In this document: one piece after another, positions 3,570 through 18,130 of the stretch | How the letters are laid out: every line of letters starts with the position of its first letter | Position numbering within the stretch: the stretch's first letter is position 1 | Source of the DNA: an uncultured bacterium | Lineage (GTDB): Bacteria; Bacteroidota; Bacteroidia; CAILMK01 | Direction: 5' to 3' | Assembly: GCA_903829945.1 (NCBI GenBank) | Contig: CAIKRV010000035.1 | Span: 1 to 32,772 of the forward strand | Length of the DNA: 32,772 nt | Notes under the pieces: model-generated | Databases searched by the model: none | What the model was told of the DNA's origin: nothing | Seen by the model: the letters and a program-made list of their open reading frames with translations, nothing else | Program-made: the position numbers and the translations under genes

Positions 3570-4361
3570 TTACAATTTAGAATTTAATGGGTTTTTTAAA
3601 TTTTCATAGGCAGTTAATTCCATTTTTATACTCCCTACACTGATGCCTGACATCACAAGAATAGGGATGTGATTGTCATCGTCGGTAATCCATAAGGCCA
3701 TATCCTCCTTGGATTTAAATATTCTGTCTTTTACCAAAAGCGGCTTTAATTTAATGCATCTAAATTTTCCGGCATCAGTTTTAATCACTTCTTTGCCAAC
3801 ATATTCCATACCTACTCTATAGGCGGAATCATCAATAAATGTACAAAACATATATTGTTGACCGGGTTGAGCATTGGTAAAATCAACATTACGGGCATAA
3901 TAAAGTGTAGATAACACATCCATTGTTGTGTCGGGTATTTTTTGAGTCCTCTTCTTTGTTTGAGCAGTTTTTGCCTTTGGATCAAAAACTACAGTTTCAT
4001 TAAAACTAAAGCTTCCCTCATTTACATCCCTGGAGGAATACATCGTTTTCATGGTAGCCAAATCAATAAAACTTTCATAATTATCTCGAATTTTAAAGAA
4101 AGGATCATAAAATCCGAAAGTTTTCCCTTTGGCGGTAAGGTGAAAACAGGAGCTGCCATTCATATCTTGAGGAGTTGCTTGAACCTGAACTTTCAATTCA
4201 CCGACAGGTACATTGACGTACAAACTGTATTTTGCCTTAAAGGTGAGTTTTTCTCCAAAAGTAAAAGCCTTATTTAAAGGAGAAACTTCAGGGATTTGTG
4301 CATGCATAGCATTGATGCTTAGCATGCAAAGTAAAATGGTATTTCTTATGATCTGTTTCAT
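3570..4361 (-). CDS. DUF3108 domain protein (first of a tandem pair)
   Basis: A 263-residue exported protein. Residues 1-21 form a typical signal peptide ending in a MHAQ-like cleavage region. The rest matches DUF3108: FGEKLTFKAKYSLY near the start, IRDNYESFIDLATM in the middle, a TLYYARNVDF segment, then TFIDDSAYRVGMEYVGKE and DMALWITDDDNHIPI near the C-terminus. Function is unknown for this family; a periplasmic or outer-membrane-facing beta protein is the best structural reading. It is the promoter-proximal gene of the DUF3108 pair and is transcribed divergently from the T9SS protein at 4426, with 64 bases between them. I see no clear promoter box for it in that gap. Confidence 0.82.
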   Translation of the reverse strand: MKQIIRNTILLCMLSINAMHAQIPEVSPLNKAFTFGEKLTFKAKYSLYVNVPVGELKVQVQATPQDMNGSSCFHLTAKGKTFGFYDPFFKIRDNYESFIDLATMKTMYSSRDVNEGSFSFNETVVFDPKAKTAQTKKRTQKIPDTTMDVLSTLYYARNVDFTNAQPGQQYMFCTFIDDSAYRVGMEYVGKEVIKTDAGKFRCIKLKPLLVKDRIFKSKEDMALWITDDDNHIPILVMSGISVGSIKMELTAYENLKNPLNSKL

Positions 4362-4413
4362 ACCTTTATATATTCAAAAGCTGTTCCAATTCAGCAATAT
4401 ACCTATAATTCAT

Positions 4414-4421
4414 TATTTTTG
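4414..4421 (+). promoter_or_regulatory. Bacteroidota -7 promoter element (TAnnTTTG), leaderless start
   Basis: TATTTTTG matches the Bacteroidota consensus TAnnTTTG exactly and ends four bases before the ATG at 4426. Transcription would begin at or within a base or two of the start codon, so the mRNA is predicted to be leaderless. No good -33 element is visible about 20 bases upstream. Confidence 0.55.
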
Positions 4422-4425
4422 TACA

Positions 4426-6330
4426 ATGAATACTTTTTTAAAAATACTGGTAGCCTGTTTTTTAATGAGTCAGAGCGTTTGTTTTGCTCAAGGACTAAAA
4501 TACCAAAGCTATGCCTTTGCCCAGGTACCGCTAAGTGGTAAAGTGGTTCCTTCAAAAATAGTAAAAGATTTTGCACCCAGCCTAAGAACTTTGGAAATGC
4601 CAAAACCTGGCGGTGAAGAGTACAGTGCCTTATTGGAAGGGATTAAAAAAAATATTCAAGAAAAACAAAGCTCGATGCCTGAAAACAAAGGTTATTTGAG
4701 GAAACCGGTTTTAGGGATAAATTTTGAAGGAAATCGTTATCCTAGCGGGGTGCCTAATGATAATCATATGGCAATTTCCAATTCAGGAATAATCGTTTCC
4801 ATGGTTAATACCACAGTAGGTGTATTTGATACCAACGGAGTAATTAAGAAAACATGGTCCTTCGATGCATTTTCAGATACCTTAAAAATTAATGCCGGCA
4901 AATATGATGGCAGAGTATTATATGATCCGGTAGCAGATCGATTTATCGTCGTATTTTTGGCCGGTTTTAATGATAGTACCAGTTATGCAATTATTGGATT
5001 TTCCTCCAGTGCTGACCCTAGTGCCTCGTGGAATCTTTATAAATTACCCGGCAGCCCTTTGGCTGATAAAACTTGGTCGGACTTCCCAATGGTAAGTATT
5101 ACTAATGACGAATTATTTTTAACCCTGAATGCGATTGAGAATAAGATGAGCTGGCAAGCAGGCTTTAAGCAATCTTATATCTGGCAAATAAATAAAACTG
5201 ACGGATACAATGGCAAAGCATTAACACATCAATTATATACCAATATATCATATAATAATAAACCGATACGAAATTTATGTCCGGTACGCGGCGGCGCCGG
5301 TTTAAAAGGTCCGGAATGTTATTTTATTTCGAATAGAAATTTTGATGCCAGTAATGACACTTTTTTTCTTGTAAAATTAGGAGGGAAAATAAATACTCCG
5401 GATACAATATTAAGCTTAACCACCTTAACTTCTTTGAACCAATATGGTGTAGCACCGGATGCCAGACAAGCTTTTCATGATACTTTGCAAACCAATGATT
5501 GCAGAGTTTTGGATGCCTTTATTGAAAATAATACCATTCAGCTGGTAGGGAATTCCAATTATTTTCCGAGTGGCAGGTCAGGTGTTTATCATGGCATTAT
5601 TAGCAATGTAAATTTAAATCCGAGTATACAATTAAATTTAATCGGTGCTAATAAAATGGACTACGGTTATCCGGCCATTGCTTATGCCGGTAAATCCGAA
5701 GGCGATGACGATGCCGTCATCGTTTTAAATTATACTTCTGATTCTTTTTACTCAGATAATAATGGCAAGCGTATATATATTTATCCGGGCTATGCAGTGG
5801 TATTTTATAAAAATAATATGTATTCCGATACATTTATGGTTCGGAAAGGAAATTCTATAATAAATATGGTATATGTAGGGAAAGACCGTTGGGGGGATTA
5901 TAGTGGTATCCAACTTAGGTATAATCATCCCGGTGAAGTGTGGGCTGCGGCAACCTTTGGACATTTAGTACGTAGTGGTACGGGTAATGTAAATGCTGCG
6001 GGAACATGGATCAGTCAGCTGACTGCACCAAGTAATACCGTTGGCATTGCAAGCATTAATAAAACATCAATGGAAGTAAATGCCTATCCTAATCCCTTGC
6101 GGAAAGATAATTATTTCAGTTTAGATTTTACTTTGGAGGAAGAAGCCATCCTAAGTTTCGATTTATATGATAGTAAAGGCACATTGGTGCGCAAACTCAT
6201 GCAAACCAAAGCGGATGAAGGCAAAAACCGTTTTAGTTTTAATTTATCAGCATTATCCTCCGGAAATTACATTTTAAAAATCAGCAGCCATGAAGGAATC
6301 ATGGTCAATAAGAAAATTATAATTAATTAG
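4426..6330 (+). CDS. Secreted propeller-like protein with T9SS type A sorting domain
   Basis: A 634-residue exported protein. The frame is open upstream to 4213, but I chose the ATG at 4426: it begins a good signal peptide (residues 1-21, ending CFAQ), it directly follows a TAnnTTTG promoter element, and the longer version would overlap the divergent DUF3108 gene. Residues about 90-530 are beta-rich with recurring aromatic and aspartate-containing strands (for example YDPVADRFIVVF and DRWGDYSGI), resembling beta-propeller secreted proteins; I see no catalytic motif. Residues about 548-634 are a type A T9SS sorting domain (YPNP start, LYDSKGTLVRKL, SSGNYILKI, VNKKIIIN end). It is therefore cargo for secretion across the outer membrane. 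Its stop is three bases from that of the convergent gene at 6334. Confidence 0.85.
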   Translation: MNTFLKILVACFLMSQSVCFAQGLKYQSYAFAQVPLSGKVVPSKIVKDFAPSLRTLEMPKPGGEEYSALLEGIKKNIQEKQSSMPENKGYLRKPVLGINFEGNRYPSGVPNDNHMAISNSGIIVSMVNTTVGVFDTNGVIKKTWSFDAFSDTLKINAGKYDGRVLYDPVADRFIVVFLAGFNDSTSYAIIGFSSSADPSASWNLYKLPGSPLADKTWSDFPMVSITNDELFLTLNAIENKMSWQAGFKQSYIWQINKTDGYNGKALTHQLYTNISYNNKPIRNLCPVRGGAGLKGPECYFISNRNFDASNDTFFLVKLGGKINTPDTILSLTTLTSLNQYGVAPDARQAFHDTLQTNDCRVLDAFIENNTIQLVGNSNYFPSGRSGVYHGIISNVNLNPSIQLNLIGANKMDYGYPAIAYAGKSEGDDDAVIVLNYTSDSFYSDNNGKRIYIYPGYAVVFYKNNMYSDTFMVRKGNSIINMVYVGKDRWGDYSGIQLRYNHPGEVWAAATFGHLVRSGTGNVNAAGTWISQLTAPSNTVGIASINKTSMEVNAYPNPLRKDNYFSLDFTLEEEAILSFDLYDSKGTLVRKLMQTKADEGKNRFSFNLSALSSGNYILKISSHEGIMVNKKIIIN

Positions 6331-6333
6331 TCC

Positions 6334-7029
6334 CTATTCAAATTTCAAGGACCTAACTAATTTATATTTTTCGCTGGTTCCATTAGAAAACTGAAAAGTA
6401 GCAATGTACTCCCCGGCAGGCAAATTTCCAAAATCAATAATTTGATTATTCCAGGACCATTCGCTTTGCTGCTTACCATTCATATTATATATGGTGATGC
6501 TTCTTACATAAACATTAGGCGCAAGACCTTCAAAGCTGGCATATTTTTGGGCAGGATTCGGGTAAAATCTTAGGTGGCTTGTATTATTTTCCAAAGGAGC
6601 TATGGCGGTATAAGATTTTAAATAAAGCTGTACAGTGATACTGTCTTTAGCAGTAAAACCATTACCGGTAGGCCAAACCACCACAATATTTGTAGTATCG
6701 GCGTGGAATTTAGGATACCCGATTTGATTGGTATGCGGTTTATTAAAATTAACACTGACATATCCAAACTCACCGGAATCCAAACTCACCCTGGTAATTC
6801 CAATACCGGGATTTTTAGTAGTATCAAAATTGGTTTTCCAAGAAGAAGATACATAGCCGGTAAACTTTTTATGGCCGGCATTTGAGAAAAACAAAACCCC
6901 TTGCGCATCATCCCCAATCACATCTGGCTGGCTCCACCATACGAAAGTGTCTGATTTTAAAACATTTTGAGCCTGAGTTTTTGAAAACCCAAGGAAGGCA
7001 AAAAACAAAATTAAAAGTAACTTTTTCAC
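6334..7029 (-). CDS. Small secreted protein with T9SS type A sorting domain
   Basis: I start this gene at the GTG at 7029, giving 231 residues. That codon begins a good signal peptide (KKLLLILFFAFLGFS followed by an AQ cleavage region). The frame extends to 7221, but that extension has no signal-peptide character and would run into the divergent gene at 7113. Residues about 22-140 form one small beta-rich domain of unknown function (VWWSQPDVIGDDAQG, GYVSVNFNKPH). Residues about 150-231 are a type A T9SS sorting domain (RFYPNPAQ, ITIYNMNGK, LPAGEYIATF). The protein is presumably exported and anchored or released at the cell surface. It converges tightly with the T9SS protein at 4426 (three bases between stops). 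Confidence 0.75.
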   Translation of the reverse strand: MKKLLLILFFAFLGFSKTQAQNVLKSDTFVWWSQPDVIGDDAQGVLFFSNAGHKKFTGYVSSSWKTNFDTTKNPGIGITRVSLDSGEFGYVSVNFNKPHTNQIGYPKFHADTTNIVVVWPTGNGFTAKDSITVQLYLKSYTAIAPLENNTSHLRFYPNPAQKYASFEGLAPNVYVRSITIYNMNGKQQSEWSWNNQIIDFGNLPAGEYIATFQFSNGTSEKYKLVRSLKFE

Positions 7030-7112
7030 GGCAGTATAGTTTATTGAAGTAAAGATATTACAAATATTTAAAATAAGTATCGTAAATTTACAAAATCTTA
7101 TTCGATTAACAA
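7030..7112. promoter_or_regulatory. Divergent promoter region
   Basis: These 83 bases separate the GTG at 7029 (minus) from the ATG at 7113 (plus). On the minus strand AATATTTG (7068-7061) is one mismatch from TAnnTTTG, with TTTG 22 bases further upstream (7094-7091). On the plus strand TAAATTTA (7083-7090) is also one mismatch from the consensus. Both are candidate promoters only. Confidence 0.3.
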
Positions 7113-8570
7113 ATGGATATCTTAAAACAAATAATTTTGGGAATGGATCGCAAAGAGGTAAAGAACTACAAAATCTTTGCGGGCAGATTGGTGCAAACAG
7201 AAGGCAGGAAGGATTTAGCATTGTTTGAAAAAATTCGTAAAACCGGCCAATCCTTTGATGACAGTATGATTTTCAGTAAATTATATTCGGCTGAAGAAGA
7301 TAAAAATTCATTTTACCAATTAAAAAACAGACTGGCAGAGGACATTAATTTAAGTATTTTCCTGCAAGAACATACCGATGATGAAACAATGCTGACCCTT
7401 TATTTTATATCCATCGGTTATTATTATTATAGCAAGAAAAACAATTATAAGTTAGGATTACATTATCTCAAAAAAGCAGAAAAAAGAGCTAAAAAGCTGG
7501 AAAACTTTTCTTTATTGGACTTAATTTATTCCAGGCTCATTCATATTACCCAAGAAACCTTTTACGAAAACCCGGAAACCTATCTCAAAAAACGCCGTGA
7601 AAACAGTATTTTATTAAATAAAATCACAGAATTAGATAATATCCTCCAAGCGGTGGAATACAAAGTAAAGATTACTCAAAATCTTTCACAATCAGATTTC
7701 CAAGAATTATTAAAACTTACTATTGATACTTATTCCAATGATGAAGAGTTAAAAAATAGCCCAAAACTTCAATTAGGAGTTTATGTTATTATTACACGAA
7801 AACTATTAAAGGACAATGACTTTATTGCATTAGAAGATTACTTAATCACTACCTATAATGACTTTAAAAATAAAAAGATATTTAGCAAATCCAATCATAG
7901 TGTAAAGTTAGAAATGATATCATGGATTGCAAATGCTTCATTTAAAAATAAAAAATACCATCAATCCTTAGAATATGCAGAAATTTTGAAGCATGAAATG
8001 GAGAAATTTGACAAGTTCTTGTATGAGCGATTTGAATTCTTTTATTACAATTCCTTAGTCATAAATTATTCTGCTATTCATCCGCAAAAGGCAATAGATA
8101 TTTTATTGGAATTGACCCGAAAAGAGAAGATGGATAAGCTTCATTTTCAAGGCGTATTTGTGTATTTAAATCTTGCAGTATTGTATCATATGCAAAAAGA
8201 TTATACCAAAGCCTTAAAATATTTGAGCCGTTTATATGCTTATGAAGATTTTAAAAACACAGAACCATTATTACAGCTTCGCATCATGATCGGGGAATTA
8301 ATGATGCGCTACGATATGAGTGATTTAGAAACTTTAGAGTATCGACTCAAACAAATAAGCAAAAAATACAAAGAGCAAATTGAAGATGTTCAAACTTGGG
8401 AAGGAGAATTCATACAAATTATTCGCGATTTGACTAATAATGAATTAAAAAAGAATAAGAAAAATCTGCAAATGGCAGCCCTAGATTTATCTAAGAAGAT
8501 TCACGGTTCCAATGAAAGTGAAAATATGCTTTTCAAATACGACGATTGGTTATTAAGTAAAGCAAAATAA
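7113..8570 (+). CDS. Uncharacterised alpha-helical repeat (TPR-like) protein
   Basis: A 485-residue protein without signal peptide or membrane segment, so probably cytoplasmic. It is strongly helical and rich in Lys, Glu, Leu and Tyr. Several helix pairs resemble tetratricopeptide-type repeats, for example around residues 97-130 (a run of tyrosines, then LGLHYLKKAEKRAKKL), 285-300 (HQSLEYAEILKHEM) and 340-375 (LAVLYHMQKDYTKALKYL). The first 90 residues form a distinct segment (GRKDLALFEKIRKTG, then FYQLKNRLAEDINLSIF) that looks conserved in kind rather than repetitive. I do not recognise a catalytic motif or a named family. A scaffold or protein-binding role is the only inference possible. 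It is transcribed alone, divergent from the small T9SS protein at 7029. Confidence 0.8.
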   Translation: MDILKQIILGMDRKEVKNYKIFAGRLVQTEGRKDLALFEKIRKTGQSFDDSMIFSKLYSAEEDKNSFYQLKNRLAEDINLSIFLQEHTDDETMLTLYFISIGYYYYSKKNNYKLGLHYLKKAEKRAKKLENFSLLDLIYSRLIHITQETFYENPETYLKKRRENSILLNKITELDNILQAVEYKVKITQNLSQSDFQELLKLTIDTYSNDEELKNSPKLQLGVYVIITRKLLKDNDFIALEDYLITTYNDFKNKKIFSKSNHSVKLEMISWIANASFKNKKYHQSLEYAEILKHEMEKFDKFLYERFEFFYYNSLVINYSAIHPQKAIDILLELTRKEKMDKLHFQGVFVYLNLAVLYHMQKDYTKALKYLSRLYAYEDFKNTEPLLQLRIMIGELMMRYDMSDLETLEYRLKQISKKYKEQIEDVQTWEGEFIQIIRDLTNNELKKNKKNLQMAALDLSKKIHGSNESENMLFKYDDWLLSKAK

Positions 8571-8833: not shown

Positions 8834-11800
8834 ATGAAAAAAACACTGCTAAATATCTTTTATTTCTTATTAATACTACTTGCTACACAAAATGTACAAG
8901 CAACACACTTAACCGGGGGCGAGCTCACCTATGTATGGGTAAAAGATAGTACTTATTCTTTAAAATTTGTCATGTACCGTGACTGTAGTGCGGGCAGTAG
9001 CAAATTTGCCACGAGTTTTACTTACAAAATATTTAGTGCCTCTAATAGTAAAACTTTTGCTACGCGGACCATCAATATTGCTTCAAAAAAATCTGTAACA
9101 CCTAGTGCGCCGCACTGTCTTACACCATCAGGCTATTGTTTGGAACAAGCCATCTATTGGGATACCGTAACCCTTGGCGGAGATACGGTTGGTTATCATG
9201 TGGTTGATTTTATGGGTAATAGAAATGGCTCTATTGTAAATTTATCCAGTCCTACCACTTCAGGGGCAGTATGGTATGCATTTATTCCACCAAATAAATA
9301 TCACAATTCATCTCCTCAATTTTTAAGTAGCCCTTTGCCATACCAATGTGTAGGCAAAAGAAGTTTTTATAATCAGGATGTATATGATCCGGATAGGGAT
9401 TCCTTAGCTTTCGGCTTGCCGGTGCCTTATATTGGTCCGGGTGGTTCAGGAAATCCTACGGCTACCATGCCTCCCTTTAAAAAAGCAACCTACAATTCAG
9501 GATATAATGCTACTTATCCATTTGGAACTTTAGGCAAGCCAATTCAAATTGATACTATTACCGGAACTTTAACCGACTCCCCTACGGCTACCGGACAATT
9601 TGTTGTGGCTGTATCTGTATCGGAATATCGTTATGACCCGGTCCGAAAAAAATCTGTTTATTTAGGTGAAATCCGTCGCGATTATCAATATTTTGTAAAT
9701 TCATGTGCCAGTTCCACCAATAAACCTCCCGTATTTGATGCTGACTCCTTAGGCCAAACTAGAAAAATCAGTCCGGATAGCTCCTTATGTTTTAATATAT
9801 CAGGTACCGACCCCAATGCGAGCGATACTGTATTTCTATGGTCCACGGCGGGTATATATAGCAATTCGCCCAACAGCAAGGCACCTTATGCTACCTTCCC
9901 GAATGATACGGGATACAAAGGGAAATATGCCGGTTTTTCAACACCGCATGCCAAAAGCACCTTCTGCTGGAAACCAAGTTGTAATCAGATTACCTATACC
10001 TCTCCTTATTTGATAACATTCAACTTAGCAGATAATGCTTGTAATGTGGTACAAAAAGTTTACAAGGTTTATGTTAATCCGCGTCCAATATTAAGCGGTC
10101 CGAATTTTTATTGCGCAGATATTAATAGCGCTACTCAGGTTAGTTTAACTTTAAAACCGATTTCACCGCCGAAAGGTAGTTTTTTACAGTATAAACTATA
10201 TCGAAAGGCAGACACGGAAAGTGTTTATAAAGCGATAGACTCCTCGAGTACCAGTTCCATAACTTCATGGGTGGATAAAACGATCACCAATGGTTACAAT
10301 CATTATTACTCGTATTATATCACCTCTACTAACTCATGTAATTTGGAAGGTTTGCCCGGTGATACTATTAACACCCTCCATGTAAAATACACGGTACTTT
10401 CTGATAAAAAAGTAAGTTTTTCATGGAATAAACAGCAAAGTACCAGTGTCAATTATCGAATAATGATTGATCAGGGCAGCGGATTTAATAAAATAGATTC
10501 GACCAAATCATTATCGTATTTAATGCAGGCATGTAATCAAACCTTCAAAATGAAAATCCAGGTGATTAGTGATTCAGGCAGTTGTACCTCGAATTCTAAT
10601 GTTACGCCATCCATTTCACTAAAGGATGTTACAGCACCTAATATTACCAATAAGCTTATTAATGCATCCTTCGGGACAAGCAATTATGTAACGCTAACTT
10701 TTAATGCTTCCGATTCAAATGATGCCTATTATTATTATGTTTACAGAGGCACCGGAGTCACCTATGCTAAATTGGATTCTATTAAAGCAATTAAAGGACA
10801 AAAAGTATATACTTATTTGGATAAAACCTTAACCAATCCTACAGTCACTAAATATTATTATGAATTAAAAGTAAAAGACACTTGCGGTAATATCAGTCCT
10901 TATAGCAATATGCATAGTCCGGTTACCTTAAGCGGTACGGCAGGTGAACTGAGGGCGACATTAAAATGGAAAAAATATCAAGGCTATACTTTAGATACTG
11001 TAGAAGTTCAAAAATTTAATGGTACCAAATGGGCCACCATAAAATATGCTGTTACCACAGATTCGAGCTATGTAGATTCAGTTGGAAATTCATGTAATGT
11101 AAAACAATATTATCGGATTTTAGTGAGAGAATCCGCCGGGAACGGACAGTTCAGTTATTCAGATTCCATCATGGTAACGCCTACGGATACGATACGTCCG
11201 GCTGAAGTTAATTTAAAAAATGTAAGTGTTAAAAATAGCACTTCCATTACCATTACTTGGGATAAAGTAGCAGATAAAGATGTAAAGAAATATTTAATTT
11301 ATTCCAGTAAAAACGGCTCGGCTTTTTCTTTCTTGACAGGATATGTAGTTTCCGGTGCCGCTACCACATTTACTTATACCAATACCGGGTTAAATACCCA
11401 AACAGACACTTTCAGTTACCGTGTATATGCTACCGATACCTGCGGACCAAACACCTCGGCATTATCAGAAACGCATACAGCAGTTAAACTTACCGGTAAT
11501 GGCGGACCTTTATCCTCTTTATTAAAATGGAGTTATTATTCAGGCTTCACGGTAAATAATTATACGGTTCAAAAATTGGTCGGAAAAGTTTGGACAAATA
11601 TTGCCGCATTATCAGATACTGCAAGTACCTATGCAGATACAGGATTAAATTGTAATGTAAAATATTACTACAGAATTAAGATTACTGAAAAGAATGGAGA
11701 TTTACAAACCTCCTATTCGGACTCCGTACAAACGGTACCGTATGATACCATTAAGCCTTCTACCGTAAATATGCTGAGTGCCTCCGTTAAAAACGGAAGT

Positions 11801-14800
11801 TCGATAGACATTACGTTTAATAAAGTGCCGGACTTAAGAGTAAAAGATTACGAGATAGATTATTTTATTAATGGCAGCACGACCTCAAGTTTTGTGGCTA
11901 AAGTTAGCTTGCCATTCAGTAGTCCGTATACTTATACCCAAACAGGCGTCAATCCGGGATCAAATACTTATTGTTATCAAGTATTTGCTTTGGATAGTTG
12001 CGGCGGTACCAAATCCAAAGTTTCGGAATTGCATTGTCCGTCAAAAATTGGCGGCTCTGCCATGGATAATTCAAATAAAATAACCTGGAGTAAATACTCC
12101 GGTTTTATAGTTGGCAAATATTATATCCAACGCTGGAATGGAACTTCATATGTTGATATTGCCAATGTAGATAGTGCTACCACAAGCTATTTGGATACAG
12201 GTTTAAATTGTAATGTTTCCAGAATATATCGAATCAGAGGCGTAGAAACAGGAGGCACTGGTATTCAATCCTATTCTGATTCCATTTCATTAACACCTTA
12301 CGATACGGTATCACCGGCTAGAGTAGATGTAATTGTAGCTACCGTAAAAGATACCACCAGTATAAATTTAACCTTTAAAAAGGTTCCGGATAAAGATGTT
12401 AAAAAATATGAAATATACTACGCCACCAATGGAGGTGCCTACAGTTTACTTACTACTATAAATTTACCGTTTACGAGCCCTTATACCTATACACATAACG
12501 GTTTAAAAACAACAAAAAATACTTATTCTTACAAAGTTTTGGCAGTAGATAGTTGTGCCGCTAATAAATCAAAATCGTGGGAAACACATACGCCGGTTTT
12601 ATTAAAAGGGAAGGCTAAAGATATGTCTTGTTTATTAACTTGGACAAGATATGCAGGCTTTGCTGTTGACAGCTATTATGTACAACGATGGAACGGAAGT
12701 TCATGGCAAGTAATTAAAGCATTGGATAGTTCAAAACTAAGTTATTTGGATACTCCTGCTGCTTGTAATGTTCCTAAATACTACCGCATCAAAACCAATG
12801 AACATGGTGGTGCATTGGCCAGTTCATATTCTGATACTATCAATGTCGTTCCGTTTGATACCGTAAAACCGGATGTACCGAATATACATTCCGTAAGCTT
12901 ATTAAATGATCAAACCATTTATCTCAGTTGGAGCAAGGTAAAAGCAAATGATGTAAAAAATTATATTGTTTACCGAGCATCACCGGGCTCGGCTGTATTT
13001 ACAGCGATTGATACTACTTTAAATGACACCTTCTATACGGATAAGTTTGCCTCTAAAATTAGTGGTTCTTACAGTTATAAAATAGTTGCCATGGATAGTT
13101 GCGCCAATAATAGAAGTGCGGCATCCATTATGCAATCTTCCATCTATGCCACTTCTTACATCAGCGGATGTAAACAACAAATCGTTGTTAAATGGAATCC
13201 ATATATCAATTGGGGCGGCGGGGTAAATAGTTATAAAATTTATAGGAGTACCAGTGGCGGTGCGGAAACTTTAGTTGCAACGATCAGTGGGAGTATTGAT
13301 ACCTTTACGGATGCTACCGTAAATCCTCGTGATTATTATATTTATAGAGTACTTGCTGCTGAGAAAGGAACAACTTATACCTCCTATTCAGAGCATGATT
13401 CTAACCAAACCTTTAAACCGGCCACGCCAGTAATTTTACATGCTTCCAAAACATTTAGTTCGGCCACTTTAGGGCAAATTACCATAAAATGGACCGCCCA
13501 AAATACTGCTGCTACGCCTTATATCAAATCACATAATATTTATTACAAAAAGGTTGGAGGAGCCGGTTTTGCATTATTGCAATCCAATATTCCGGTAAGC
13601 AAGGATAGTTTTGTACATACCGGTTTAAATACCTTAGCAGATGATTATGAATATTACATAACTGCAAATGATAGTTGTGGGAATGTATCTGACACCTCCA
13701 TTATTCATAAAACAATGAATCTTAAATTAACCGTGATTCAATTGTTTCATAAATTAAGCTGGACTGCTTATAAAGGATGGCCGGTGAAAAATTATGTGGT
13801 TCAACTTAAAGTAGGTAGCAGTTGGACAAATTATGATTCCGTTTCAGGAAGTGTCACAAATTATACACGATTCCCGGCCCCTTGTTATAAAATTATATTT
13901 TATCGCATCATAGCGAAAGATTCATTTGGTAATTCTGCACTTTCCGATACTGCAGGCGGGGAAGCCATAGATTCTGAACCACCAAATAAAGTAATTATAC
14001 ATAATGCTACGGTGCTCACCGGTAAAACGGCAAAATTATGGTTCCGTGGTGCCGATTCATTGGACTTGTACAAATATGCAATTATGCGTTCTAACGACGC
14101 AGGCACTGTATTTAATACTGCCGGAAGTATGTTATTTACTACGCCTGGTGCCGCACTAAGTTTTGTGGACTCGGTCAATACGATGAATGATTATCATCGC
14201 TATGTAATTCTGGCAATGGATAGTTGTTTGAATACTTCGATATCGGACACCTTTGCCACCATACAATTACGAGGGCTGGCACAAAATTTACAAAATCGAT
14301 TATTCTGGAAACCATTTAAAGGAAATCCAATTGATAGTTATTATGTACAGTTGTATTCCGGAGGAACTTGGACTACTATTGCTACCTTAAAACCAACTGA
14401 TTCTTTTTATGTACATACGCCTTTAAATTGCGGAGTAGCCAGAACTTATAAAATACTTGGCAAGGAAAGCGGTGGGGTTTATACCACCCTATCGGATAGC
14501 ATTACATTAACTCCGTTTGATACTACTGCTCCGCCGGCACCTGTAACAGATTATGCTAGCGTTTTAAATCATTCCAGCATTTATTTCCAATGGGAAAAGG
14601 CCGTAAGCAAGGTTAAAAAATATGAGGTTTCCATTAAATCTGCCAATGGTCCGTGGACGGTAGCAGCCACATTAATCAATAAATTAAATTACACTTTCAC
14701 CGGTTTAAATACCTTGGATTCTACGTATAGTGTACGTGTGGTGGCTATCGATTCATGTGCCGGCAATAGAAGTACCGGAAATACAATTCATACTGTCATT

Positions 14801-17800
14801 AATGTGGTTCCAACGGCAATGGATCAAAGTGCTTTATTAAATTGGAATGCTTATCAAGGTTTCACTGTAAAACAATATATTATTTACAGATATAACGGCG
14901 GATGGAATAAAATTGATTCTGTAAAAGGCAGTGTACTTACCTATACGGATAAACCATTAGCTTGTAACGTAAAACAAACATATAAAATAGTTGCGCAAGA
15001 TAATGTGGGCAAATTTAGTTCTACGTCTGATTCAGTCTCTACCCTTCCATTTGATACGATCAAACCTCCTGCTACTACCTTAAATTATGCTACTATTTTA
15101 CCAAATCATAGCATTAAAGTATCCTGGGTTTGGAACACCAAAACAGATGTAAAAGATTTTAATATTTACCGCAAAAAAGATGGTGGTTCATTTAATAAAA
15201 TTGCGAGTGTAACATATGATAGCAGTTATACGGATACCTCCACGCATCCTCAATTTTCCACTTATTCTTACTATGTAGTTGTGGTGGATTCATGTAGCAA
15301 TAAAAACATTTCGCCACCTTCCGATAGTGATAAAGTAATGTTCCTGACTTCACATACCGGTGGATGCAAACCTTATGCTACTATTTATTGGACACCGTTT
15401 AAAGCTTTACCTAACGGAACCAGCAAATATTATATATATAAATCATCGGGAGCAGGATTTACCTATTTAGCATCCGTTAGCGGTACTACAAATACTTATA
15501 TTGATTCTGCAGTTTTAGAAAATAAGACGTATTGTTATCGAGTGGTAGCGCATGATGCCACCAGTGGTTTCTCTTCCTCTTCGGACAGTATATGTGTTAC
15601 TCCTTATATATATCCAAGACCAAAATCAATCAGCACGCAATATGTTAGTGTAAGTGCTAGCAGTGCAAGTAATGGTGCCGTTCAAATATACTGGAATAAA
15701 CGAGTAAAAGGTGATACTTTCACTATAGCCTATCGCATTTACCATGCTACCGCTAAGGCCGGGCCTTATACTTTAATCCATGAAGAAAAAGACACGAATA
15801 CCACGAGCTACCTGCATAAAGGAATAAATACATTGGGCGCAAACCATTTTTATTATGTGGTTACCGTAAATGTTTGCAGCTTGGAAGCCTTCCCGCTGGA
15901 TACGCATAAAACCGTATTGCTGAAAGTAAGTAATCGCAGTTTGGCAACTAATTTAATTTGGAATACCTACCAAGGCTTTACAGTTTCAGGATATGAAGTT
16001 TATCGCTCTATAAATGGAGCAACTGCAACTTTATTGAAGAAGAAATTGCCAAGTGATACCAGCCTAACAGATTTGAATATTCGATGCGGAATAAACTATT
16101 CTTATATTGTTAAAGCAATTTCTACGACAGGATTAAATTCTTGGTCCGATTCAGTAGGTGTTACCGGTGTAGATAGTACTGCCCCATTAAAAGCAAAAAT
16201 TATTTTTGCCAGTGTAACGGCTACTGATACCAAAACAGGTACTGTATCCTTAGCATTTAATGCTGCCAATGATATTAACCGCAAAGGGTATAAAATATAT
16301 AGACAGGATAATGGTGCAGGACCTTACAACTTATTGTTAAGTGCAAATGACACCAATTCCAATGGCATTGTGTTTACGGATAAAAACATCAATACCTATA
16401 AATCTACCTACAGTTATTATATTCAAACTTTTGATAGTTGTGGTAATATAGCCATGCCTTCAGATACACATACCACCATATTATTAAGTGCCACACCAAT
16501 CAGTAATATGAATATTATTAATTGGACCAATTATCATGGATTTAAATTCATGTACTATAAATTGGAACGAATGACTGCCACCAATCCTTGGAAAACCATT
16601 GCAATATTTGCACCGGGAACCAATAACTTCAGTGATTCCTTGATTACTTGTCATGTTAAATATACCTATCGTATTACAGCGCTGGATACCTTAAATGCAG
16701 TATTTAGTTATTCAAATATTGATACGGCTACCGGAATTAGAAATACACCGCCACGTCATCCGGATTTAATTTTAACTACGGTTACCAAAACGGATATTAA
16801 AAACGGAAATATACTTCTTGAATGGCATCCAAGTACCACCTATGGTATTGCCACGTATTTTATTTATAGAAGTACAGATAATTTAGTTTGGAGAAAAATA
16901 GCCACTGTATCTGCTACGGATACCTCCTATACGGATAATATGTTTGAGACCTACGAGAAAAGTTATTATTACAGGATTGAAGCTTATGATTCATGTGGAA
17001 ATATCAGTAAAGATGCTGCCCTGTTAAATACACACAGGACCATTGGCCTAAGCACTAAAGCCGGTAACCAAGAAACTGATATTTCATGGAATCAATATAT
17101 GGGATTCCCTGCGGTAGTTTACAAATTATATAGAGATGGACAAGTTTGGGCACGCTTTACAGATACTACTACACATTATATCGATACCTTGGTAATATGC
17201 GGTAGGATGTACCACTACGTTATGCAAGCAATGAGTGCAGATAGTGCAACTATTTCTTGGTCTAATCGCGACAGTGTAGTTACCGTGGACCATAAAGCGC
17301 CAAGAGCCATACATATAGTTACCGCAACAGTTGATTCTCCTAATATTAGTATTTTGGTGCGCTGGACCAAATCTACCAATTATGATGCATTGAAATATGT
17401 ATTGTACCGCCGCTATGGTGATTTAGGAAATTGGACAATAGCGCATAGTACTACTAATTTAAATGATACCGTATTTATTGACAGCTTACCAAACTTTGGA
17501 TCCAGGCCGCATTGCTATATGATACAAGTGGTGGATTATTGTAATAATAAAAGTGAACAAAGTAATTTGGCCTGCACTATATATTTAACAGGTAAGGTCG
17601 ACCCGCTGATTCATACCTTGAACTGGACACCATATAAACAATGGGGACAAGGTGTAATGTTATACAATATTTATAAGAAGGAAGATAGTGCCAGCTGGAA
17701 ATTAATTGCAAAAACTGACAGCACTACTTATACATATAAGGATGAGAATTTGAGCAATTATGTAAAAGACCATTGCTATCAAGTAGAAGCTATTGAGAAA

Positions 17801-18130
17801 AATGGATACATGGCTAGTTCACGTTCAAATATGATATGCTTGGAACAACCGCCACTAATATTTATGCCTAACGTATTTACACCGGGTACTTCTCCAGGTT
17901 TAAATGATTATTTTGGACCTAAAGGTACCTATTTCGGTGCCTATGAAATGCGCATCTTTGATAGATGGGGAGAAGAAATTTATCATACCGTTTCCGGGAA
18001 GCCATGGGACGGTAGAGCTATGGGTAGTAAAATAGTGCCGGAAGGTGTCTATATGTATCAAATTACTGTTCCTGATTTCCAAGGATTGAAAGAATATCAT
18101 TTTAATGGAACAGTACATGTATTAAGATAA
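8834..18130 (+). CDS. Giant multi-FnIII surface protein with gliding-motility-type (T9SS type B) C-terminal domain
   Basis: A 3098-residue exported protein. Residues 1-23 are a signal peptide. Residues 24-415 form an N-terminal region opening with THLTGGELTYVW and YRDCSAG, an arrangement common at the start of large Bacteroidota adhesin-like proteins. Residues 418-3004 are 14 tandem units of about 185 residues; each is a pair of fibronectin-III/Ig-like beta-sandwiches, with linkers like PYDTIKP between units and a conserved DSCG in the first sandwich. Residues about 3008-3098 are the gliding-motility-associated (CHU_C-like, type B) sorting domain: FMPNVFTPG, MRIFDRWGEEIY, KPWDGRAMG, PEGVYMYQI. 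The protein should be secreted by the T9SS and displayed on the surface; adhesion is inferred, with no enzymatic motif seen. It is monocistronic, ending in a strong terminator. The reading frame is intact throughout. Confidence 0.92.
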   Translation: MKKTLLNIFYFLLILLATQNVQATHLTGGELTYVWVKDSTYSLKFVMYRDCSAGSSKFATSFTYKIFSASNSKTFATRTINIASKKSVTPSAPHCLTPSGYCLEQAIYWDTVTLGGDTVGYHVVDFMGNRNGSIVNLSSPTTSGAVWYAFIPPNKYHNSSPQFLSSPLPYQCVGKRSFYNQDVYDPDRDSLAFGLPVPYIGPGGSGNPTATMPPFKKATYNSGYNATYPFGTLGKPIQIDTITGTLTDSPTATGQFVVAVSVSEYRYDPVRKKSVYLGEIRRDYQYFVNSCASSTNKPPVFDADSLGQTRKISPDSSLCFNISGTDPNASDTVFLWSTAGIYSNSPNSKAPYATFPNDTGYKGKYAGFSTPHAKSTFCWKPSCNQITYTSPYLITFNLADNACNVVQKVYKVYVNPRPILSGPNFYCADINSATQVSLTLKPISPPKGSFLQYKLYRKADTESVYKAIDSSSTSSITSWVDKTITNGYNHYYSYYITSTNSCNLEGLPGDTINTLHVKYTVLSDKKVSFSWNKQQSTSVNYRIMIDQGSGFNKIDSTKSLSYLMQACNQTFKMKIQVISDSGSCTSNSNVTPSISLKDVTAPNITNKLINASFGTSNYVTLTFNASDSNDAYYYYVYRGTGVTYAKLDSIKAIKGQKVYTYLDKTLTNPTVTKYYYELKVKDTCGNISPYSNMHSPVTLSGTAGELRATLKWKKYQGYTLDTVEVQKFNGTKWATIKYAVTTDSSYVDSVGNSCNVKQYYRILVRESAGNGQFSYSDSIMVTPTDTIRPAEVNLKNVSVKNSTSITITWDKVADKDVKKYLIYSSKNGSAFSFLTGYVVSGAATTFTYTNTGLNTQTDTFSYRVYATDTCGPNTSALSETHTAVKLTGNGGPLSSLLKWSYYSGFTVNNYTVQKLVGKVWTNIAALSDTASTYADTGLNCNVKYYYRIKITEKNGDLQTSYSDSVQTVPYDTIKPSTVNMLSASVKNGSSIDITFNKVPDLRVKDYEIDYFINGSTTSSFVAKVSLPFSSPYTYTQTGVNPGSNTYCYQVFALDSCGGTKSKVSELHCPSKIGGSAMDNSNKITWSKYSGFIVGKYYIQRWNGTSYVDIANVDSATTSYLDTGLNCNVSRIYRIRGVETGGTGIQSYSDSISLTPYDTVSPARVDVIVATVKDTTSINLTFKKVPDKDVKKYEIYYATNGGAYSLLTTINLPFTSPYTYTHNGLKTTKNTYSYKVLAVDSCAANKSKSWETHTPVLLKGKAKDMSCLLTWTRYAGFAVDSYYVQRWNGSSWQVIKALDSSKLSYLDTPAACNVPKYYRIKTNEHGGALASSYSDTINVVPFDTVKPDVPNIHSVSLLNDQTIYLSWSKVKANDVKNYIVYRASPGSAVFTAIDTTLNDTFYTDKFASKISGSYSYKIVAMDSCANNRSAASIMQSSIYATSYISGCKQQIVVKWNPYINWGGGVNSYKIYRSTSGGAETLVATISGSIDTFTDATVNPRDYYIYRVLAAEKGTTYTSYSEHDSNQTFKPATPVILHASKTFSSATLGQITIKWTAQNTAATPYIKSHNIYYKKVGGAGFALLQSNIPVSKDSFVHTGLNTLADDYEYYITANDSCGNVSDTSIIHKTMNLKLTVIQLFHKLSWTAYKGWPVKNYVVQLKVGSSWTNYDSVSGSVTNYTRFPAPCYKIIFYRIIAKDSFGNSALSDTAGGEAIDSEPPNKVIIHNATVLTGKTAKLWFRGADSLDLYKYAIMRSNDAGTVFNTAGSMLFTTPGAALSFVDSVNTMNDYHRYVILAMDSCLNTSISDTFATIQLRGLAQNLQNRLFWKPFKGNPIDSYYVQLYSGGTWTTIATLKPTDSFYVHTPLNCGVARTYKILGKESGGVYTTLSDSITLTPFDTTAPPAPVTDYASVLNHSSIYFQWEKAVSKVKKYEVSIKSANGPWTVAATLINKLNYTFTGLNTLDSTYSVRVVAIDSCAGNRSTGNTIHTVINVVPTAMDQSALLNWNAYQGFTVKQYIIYRYNGGWNKIDSVKGSVLTYTDKPLACNVKQTYKIVAQDNVGKFSSTSDSVSTLPFDTIKPPATTLNYATILPNHSIKVSWVWNTKTDVKDFNIYRKKDGGSFNKIASVTYDSSYTDTSTHPQFSTYSYYVVVVDSCSNKNISPPSDSDKVMFLTSHTGGCKPYATIYWTPFKALPNGTSKYYIYKSSGAGFTYLASVSGTTNTYIDSAVLENKTYCYRVVAHDATSGFSSSSDSICVTPYIYPRPKSISTQYVSVSASSASNGAVQIYWNKRVKGDTFTIAYRIYHATAKAGPYTLIHEEKDTNTTSYLHKGINTLGANHFYYVVTVNVCSLEAFPLDTHKTVLLKVSNRSLATNLIWNTYQGFTVSGYEVYRSINGATATLLKKKLPSDTSLTDLNIRCGINYSYIVKAISTTGLNSWSDSVGVTGVDSTAPLKAKIIFASVTATDTKTGTVSLAFNAANDINRKGYKIYRQDNGAGPYNLLLSANDTNSNGIVFTDKNINTYKSTYSYYIQTFDSCGNIAMPSDTHTTILLSATPISNMNIINWTNYHGFKFMYYKLERMTATNPWKTIAIFAPGTNNFSDSLITCHVKYTYRITALDTLNAVFSYSNIDTATGIRNTPPRHPDLILTTVTKTDIKNGNILLEWHPSTTYGIATYFIYRSTDNLVWRKIATVSATDTSYTDNMFETYEKSYYYRIEAYDSCGNISKDAALLNTHRTIGLSTKAGNQETDISWNQYMGFPAVVYKLYRDGQVWARFTDTTTHYIDTLVICGRMYHYVMQAMSADSATISWSNRDSVVTVDHKAPRAIHIVTATVDSPNISILVRWTKSTNYDALKYVLYRRYGDLGNWTIAHSTTNLNDTVFIDSLPNFGSRPHCYMIQVVDYCNNKSEQSNLACTIYLTGKVDPLIHTLNWTPYKQWGQGVMLYNIYKKEDSASWKLIAKTDSTTYTYKDENLSNYVKDHCYQVEAIEKNGYMASSRSNMICLEQPPLIFMPNVFTPGTSPGLNDYFGPKGTYFGAYEMRIFDRWGEEIYHTVSGKPWDGRAMGSKIVPEGVYMYQITVPDFQGLKEYHFNGTVHVLR
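10085..17846 (+). repeat. 14-unit tandem array of double FnIII-like modules (about 555 bp each)
   Basis: Unit starts, set at the linker proline, fall at residues 418, 601, 789, 975, 1161, 1346, 1529, 1717, 1901, 2079, 2263, 2451, 2640 and 2823 of the giant protein. Spacings are 178-189 residues. Units are diverged at the DNA level apart from short shared words, so the array looks old rather than recently amplified. Units 5, 9 and 13 (counting from 0) carry a different second sandwich, with extra residues after its first strand (for example NPYINWGGGV) and a relocated cysteine. Confidence 0.85.

Follow-up and report, generated by a model that had tools for sequence, protein, structure and literature searches.

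A giant T9SS type B cargo gene with 14 paired sandwich units

The window, 32,772 nucleotides of DNA from an uncultured member of the Bacteroidota, carries a 3098-aa open reading frame on its forward strand (8834..18130) that is predicted to encode a giant T9SS type B surface protein. All features described below lie on this strand. The frame begins with an N-terminal region without repeat units (aa 1-414, 8834..10075), which has a signal-peptide-like start by eye and is widespread in the class, with matches at E ≤ 0.001 in 53 of 60 genomes. This region is followed by an array of 14 AB units of 178-190 aa each (aa 415-3007, 10076..17854), or 28 FnIII-like sandwiches; a preliminary description of this DNA had placed the array at 10085-17846, which is close. 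At the C terminus, aa 3010-3082 (17861..18079) form a CHU_C secretion signal of type B; PF13585 scores 40 bits there (cut-off 27), which identifies the protein as T9SS type B cargo, while NCBIfam TIGR04131 reached 27.4 bits in the frame, below its cut-off of 35. Just upstream, at 4213-8570, the window holds two more T9SS cargo genes, of type A (705 and 295 aa), as well as a gene whose 485-aa product matches TPR weakly.

The array falls into three blocks. Unit alignment delimits block 1, which consists of the six units 0-5 (10076..13414) and in which units 2, 3 and 4 are 42-50% identical. Block 2 (units 6-9, 13415..15607) and block 3 (units 10-13, 15608..17854) are delimited by unit alignment together with trees of units from several proteins.

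The units are modelled as tandem FnIII-like sandwiches

Pfam fn3 (PF00041) remained below its curated cut-off of 25 bits, with a best stretch in the frame of 23 bits, and it was not one of the two Pfam families matched at E ≤ 1 in the 3098-aa frame. Profile matches of the array sandwiches included neogenin, titin and RPTP-delta. We built AF2 models of units 4B-7A (pLDDT 89.5, pTM 0.53) and 8B-11A (pLDDT 91.3, pTM 0.58), in which the orientation of the units is uncertain because of these pTM values. Foldseek recognized the 4B-7A model as an FnIII-like tandem, and VIA-align of the 8B-11A model against tandem FnIII pairs gave Z of 12-13 over 177-184 residues with an rmsd of 5.7-8.2. As modelled, the sandwiches would therefore have the seven-strand fold of solved tandem FnIII domains. 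The sole Pfam domain above its cut-off in the array, GH85_C at aa 1174-1251 of P0001 (39.4 bits, cut-off 27), probably reflects nothing beyond the FnIII-like fold.

Foldseek with model m0fb5c46338b8 (window 12605-14269) also returned, at rank 40, GhpA, the grappling hook protein of Aureispira (its base, 9fly_A; E 7.7e-11, 13% identity). Since no GhpA chain was among the matches listed in the sequence searches, we take this likeness as shared sandwich architecture only.

Three units carry a variant second sandwich

In the second sandwich, the loop separating the Trp of strand B from the Tyr of strand C has 12 residues in three of the 14 units and 9-10 residues in the other 11. The three are unit 5 (variant sandwich at 13151..13414, loop WNPYINWGGGVNSY), which ends block 1, unit 9 (15347..15607, loop WTPFKALPNGTSKY), which ends block 2, and unit 13 (17588..17854, loop WTPYKQWGQGVMLY), which adjoins the secretion signal. 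Each of the 11 ordinary units has a Cys in the EF loop (in an NCNV-like motif) that is missing from the variants. In units 5 and 9 the AB region is longer and contains a Cys, whereas unit 13 lacks the EF-loop and AB-loop Cys alike. The variant units begin at aa 1341, 2073 and 2818, a spacing of 732 and 745 residues.

Most of what the preliminary description had said about these units is borne out. It had singled out units 5, 9 and 13 as alone in having a different second sandwich, and the loop lengths agree; its spacing of 733 and 744 residues was nearly exact. It had, however, placed the extra residues after strand A instead of between strands B and C. Its statement that units 6 and 10, which follow a variant, lack the DTxxP linker is correct, but they are not the only ones: the linker is NPRP in unit 0 and RNTPP, lacking the Asp, in unit 12. 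It had further expected units 5, 9 and 13 to cluster. Within the protein, units 5 and 9 are each other's closest unit in the multi-protein trees of AB units, A sandwiches and B sandwiches, and the profile grouping described below joins them as well, whereas the nearest unit to unit 13 is unit 5 in the AB tree, unit 12 in the A tree and unit 2 in the B tree.

Relatives keep three blocks and vary their size

The searches covered 12 genomes from the same order, 295 from the class and 296 from the phylum, together with 64 from the family that includes G218 and 21 from the order that includes G137. A whole-protein scan of genome contigs gave one distant match (L024), and the orthologues came from the genome searches instead. 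The family is narrow: 15 of the 295 class genomes matched at E ≤ 1e-50, and in the phylum sample the window's own genome alone matched at E ≤ 1e-40. HMMs of the A and B sandwiches found ABAB alternation in the relatives, apart from a few missed or cut sandwiches.

All 14 complete proteins, from 14 genomes including that of the window, have three variant units with a variant always last, a constancy that holds for a manual selection in which three blocks and both ends were required. The window protein has block sizes of 6/4/4, and the others are 6/5/4 (two proteins), 8/5/4 (three), 4/5/4 (one), 4/4/4 (four, all of one family), 5/3/3 (two) and 5/7/3 (one), so that block 1 has 4-8 units, block 2 has 3-7 and block 3 has 3-4. 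The first interval between variants is accordingly 3, 4, 5 or 7 units and the second 3 or 4. The preliminary description had suggested checking the four-unit spacing in homologues, and four turns out to be one case among several; a fixed period of four units or eight sandwiches was rejected on the basis of this variation.

For counts over all relatives, which are not independent of each other, a unit was labelled variant by its loop length or an AB-loop Cys together with the absence of the EF-loop Cys. Of 79 variants, 72 had a loop of 12-13 residues, and 251 of 256 normal units had one of 9-11. A DxxP-type linker was present at 235 of 260 joints after a normal unit versus 11 of 48 after a variant, leaving 25 normal joints without the motif and 11 post-variant joints with it. 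Other relatives that bear the signal depart from the three-block plan: L029 has two units, L073 and L075 have two variants each, and L082-L084 have six units with three variants. L031 includes a long-loop unit that retains its EF-loop Cys, and L097 has one variant in 13 detected units, with an open frame that reaches the end of the fetched sequence. Some genomes contain several such genes. In G001, of the same genus, the short L029 (880 aa) and a 2673-aa frame with seven units (L075) occur besides an orthologue fragment (L076) beside accD, and in G002 the shorter paralogues L082-L084 accompany L077.

Block ends are ancient and interior units turn over

Trees were made from 134 units of ten of the 14 complete proteins, with the near-identical L044, L098, L089 and L091 left out. 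In the AB tree, the nearest unit of another protein occupied the same position in 10 of 10 cases for the first, second and last units of block 2 and the first and last of block 3, in 9 of 10 for the first and last of block 1 and the second of block 3, and in 7 of 7 for the penultimate unit of block 3. These families therefore diverged after the block ends had arisen. Profiles were built for the first, second, penultimate and last positions of each block, with other interior units omitted, and their comparison groups the three variant sets together (5, 9 and 13) and likewise the units that follow a variant (6 and 10). End to end, last units scored 310 between blocks 1 and 2 and 236 between blocks 2 and 3, and first units scored 243 between blocks 2 and 3.

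The middles of the blocks behave differently from their ends. The second and penultimate units of block 2 both found their best match in the penultimate unit of block 1 (278 and 321), compared with 174 and 225 for the units in register in block 3. Of the 187 interior units, 23 belonged to a pair at least 60% identical within their protein, as did 1 of 24 first-listed units but none of the 126 variant or post-variant units. The Fisher value for this contrast is indicative only, as the proteins are related. In L077, adjacent interior units 7-9 are 87-90% identical, a recent expansion within block 2. In L097, interior units of blocks 1 and 2 (units 4, 5, 6, 11 and 12) are 60-80% identical, as if copied across blocks.

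This bears on the proposal in the preliminary description that units 2-5, 6-9 and 10-13 are a higher-order four-unit repeat formed by block duplication, here with a middle blurred by later turnover. Its prediction that units n and n+4 should be closer than random pairs failed: in the window protein, whole-unit identity at lag 4 was 30.6% versus 30.2% for random pairs (p = 0.38), and p was 0.41 after dropping the pairs 5-9, 9-13 and 6-10. Whole-unit identity instead peaks at lag 1, with units 2-4 the closest; the best pair of units is 50% identical and the median 29%. TRF found no tandem array in the window (0 rows), and a recent DNA duplication as the origin of the array was accordingly rejected. 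An older duplication does find some agreement in the correspondence of the ends (5, 9 and 13; 6 and 10), in the four 4/4/4 proteins of one family, in the z-scores of B sandwiches at lag 4 (p = 0.024, compared with 0.39 for A sandwiches) and in the in-register pairing of whole units, which ranked 1-2 of 24 for blocks 1 and 2 and also for blocks 2 and 3, where the ends carry it. Against it, B sandwiches alone ranked 17 of 24 in the tree and 6 of 24 in the profile comparison for blocks 2 versus 3, the middles of block 2 resemble those of block 1 and not those of block 3, and block sizes range over 4-8, 3-7 and 3-4 units. The correspondence of the block ends is thus what remains of the proposal, with the middles out of register and lag 4 flat, and we consider duplication of four-unit blocks rather unlikely.

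The variant is the common signal-proximal sandwich

A type B tail match was present in 45 open reading frames, of which 15 lay outside the array set. Six of these 15 have a B-sandwich match adjoining the tail; the rest are an array fragment (L086) and eight frames without a unit match. In all six, the last sandwich before the tail scored highest with an HMM of a variant group. We conclude that the variant subtype is the common signal-proximal sandwich, of which the array holds two extra copies in its interior.

Such a distribution could also arise if the array were a fusion of the C-terminal parts of three type B proteins, with the two inner signals lost and the inner variants left as fossils of sandwiches that once preceded a signal. 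The variant group of unit 5 indeed scores as high as the terminal group with generic signal-proximal sandwiches, and a distinct kind of first sandwich follows each inner variant. The translation at the two inner joints, however, has no visible CHU_C remnant, and the AB-loop Cys of internal variants is missing from terminal ones. We therefore regard a fusion of three ends as unlikely.

Cysteines suggest that each unit is linked to the next

In FnIII domains the EF and AB loops lie at one pole and face the FG loop of the next unit, and in an extended pair of sandwiches the FG loop and the EF and AB loops are at opposite poles. AF2 models place the conserved Cys residues of the array in these three loops. 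The AB-loop Cys of unit 5 (aa 1446, 13169..13171) and of unit 9 (aa 2178, 15365..15367) each lie between two strands in the model and are invariant in alignments A1 and A2, respectively. The ordinary site is exemplified by the EF-loop Cys of unit 4 (aa 1311, 12764..12766), in the loop preceding strand F. The FG-loop Cys residues of unit 6 (aa 1615, 13676..13678) and unit 10 (aa 2348, 15875..15877) come right after strand F and are the proposed partners of the AB-loop Cys of units 5 and 9, respectively.

Across the relatives, every one of the 334 A sandwiches has a Cys in the FG loop just past strand F, and every one of the 48 internal variants has the AB-loop Cys. Among 250 normal B sandwiches, 249 have the EF-loop Cys, and the remaining one is truncated by a contig end. 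The absence of the EF-loop Cys from variants is partly built in because the label requires it; when units were called by loop length or AB-loop Cys alone, 5 of 84 kept the EF-loop Cys, namely three first units and the third units of L031 and L081. Last units have the FG-loop Cys in 31 of 31 cases and lack both the EF-loop and AB-loop Cys in 30 of 31. An even number of Cys occurs in 218 of 242 normal units and 42 of 48 internal variants, and an odd number in 29 of 31 last units, with 24, 6 and 2 exceptions, respectively. Paired Cys on strands F and G (YCY and a later Cys) would, by their position, explain most of the others. If each B sandwich donates one Cys to the next A sandwich, an odd count would be expected in the last unit and an even count in internal units. 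In type B proteins where a single AB pair follows a different domain, the pair has the FG-loop Cys without an EF-loop or AB-loop Cys in B, and the preceding domain has a Cys (5 of 5). Together, this parity suggests that each EF-loop or AB-loop Cys forms a disulfide bridge to the FG-loop Cys of the next unit.

The same residues could instead pair inside a unit, with the FG-loop Cys of A bound to the EF-loop or AB-loop Cys of B, so that each unit would be a closed clamp of two sandwiches. This arrangement equally predicts the even number of Cys in most internal units, but it would leave the FG-loop Cys of last units without a partner and give no role to the Cys of the preceding domain in single-pair proteins, and it would have to join loops at opposite poles of the extended pair. 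We find a clamp within the unit quite improbable. A fixed superhelical repeat that needs a special joint every four units, the structural alternative in the preliminary description, is very improbable, as the spacing of exactly four in the window protein and the four 4/4/4 proteins gives way to 3, 5 or 7 units in the first interval and 3 or 4 in the second among the other complete proteins.

A probable block-ended stalk

Three blocks with conserved ends and a variable interior, the relocation of a Cys and a change of linker at the inner block ends are observed. We think it probable that the protein is a block-ended stalk exported by the T9SS, in which three ancient blocks (here of 6, 4 and 4 units) have conserved ends, a free interior and putative disulfide staples between units. 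The product would be a very large surface stalk made of the N-terminal region, the 28 sandwiches and the type B signal. Every block closes with a copy of the sandwich subtype that normally precedes the signal, and the next opens with a distinct first sandwich lacking DTxxP. Interior units duplicate, are lost and are apparently sometimes copied across blocks, and the comparison of relatives shows length shifting in this way while the two special joints persist. At an ordinary joint, a disulfide may connect the EF loop of sandwich B with the FG loop of the A sandwich that follows and, along with the DTxxP linker, stiffen the chain into a rod. At either inner block end, a staple from the AB loop and a different linker may give joints of another angle or flexibility. 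The stalk likely serves adhesion by keeping the N-terminal region well away from the outer membrane, although this role is a guess from the architecture and from known type B cargo and repeat-number stalks, and no adhesive domain was identified in the protein.

The fullest form of this model is a covalent daisy chain, in which every unit is stapled to the next and three stiff rods meet at two conserved joints where the AB loop takes over from the EF loop as the origin of the staple; interior units would set the length, and the end-piece would be reused before many type B signals. It may be correct, though we lean somewhat against it as a whole. A disulfide chain, if real, would help to account for the extended state of a 28-sandwich protein outside the cell, and the sequences of other type B proteins would then reveal their block structure. 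The apparent rule of every fourth unit thus becomes a testable design rule for giant T9SS stalks, with fixed ends, a free interior and a cysteine code that predicts covalently linked neighbours.

Type B cargo is thought to be retained by PorP-like proteins (PMC9143113). The window protein is of a known kind, a T9SS type B stalk, and resembles SprB-like giant cargo in having an N-terminal export start, a long array and a C-terminal type B signal; it differs in that its array consists of paired FnIII-like units in three blocks. Like the A-band of titin, it combines FnIII domains of several types in a higher-order pattern, yet titin super-repeats have a fixed period, whereas here block length varies and lag 4 brings no significant rise in whole-unit similarity in the window protein. 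The titin A-band has been termed highly repetitive (PMC10665226). Periscope Proteins and fibrillar adhesins are rod-like tandem sandwiches of variable number (PMC8201768, PMC9704523), and repeat-number stalks are also described in PMC9210967. Some interior units of L077, L095 and L096 are 87-99% identical, as in Periscope Proteins. The window protein itself lacks such highly similar domains, since its unit pairs are at most 50% identical and TRF reported no array, and unit number here varies between species around fixed block ends. The titles and abstract openings listed in literature searches, which mostly did not cover subscription papers, contain no description of such an array in three blocks or of FnIII units stapled together in T9SS cargo.

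Gene order was compared by tblastn of 12 window neighbours against 52 relative loci. The accD gene lies beside the array in L076, of the same genus (94%), and the other match was purL in L037 and L038; no further neighbour matched, so gene order says nothing on the distant relatives. The purL gene (80-2326 in the window) is near the array gene, and in L037 and L038 it stands beside giant relatives of the N-terminal region, a proximity that could reflect old gene order or chance.
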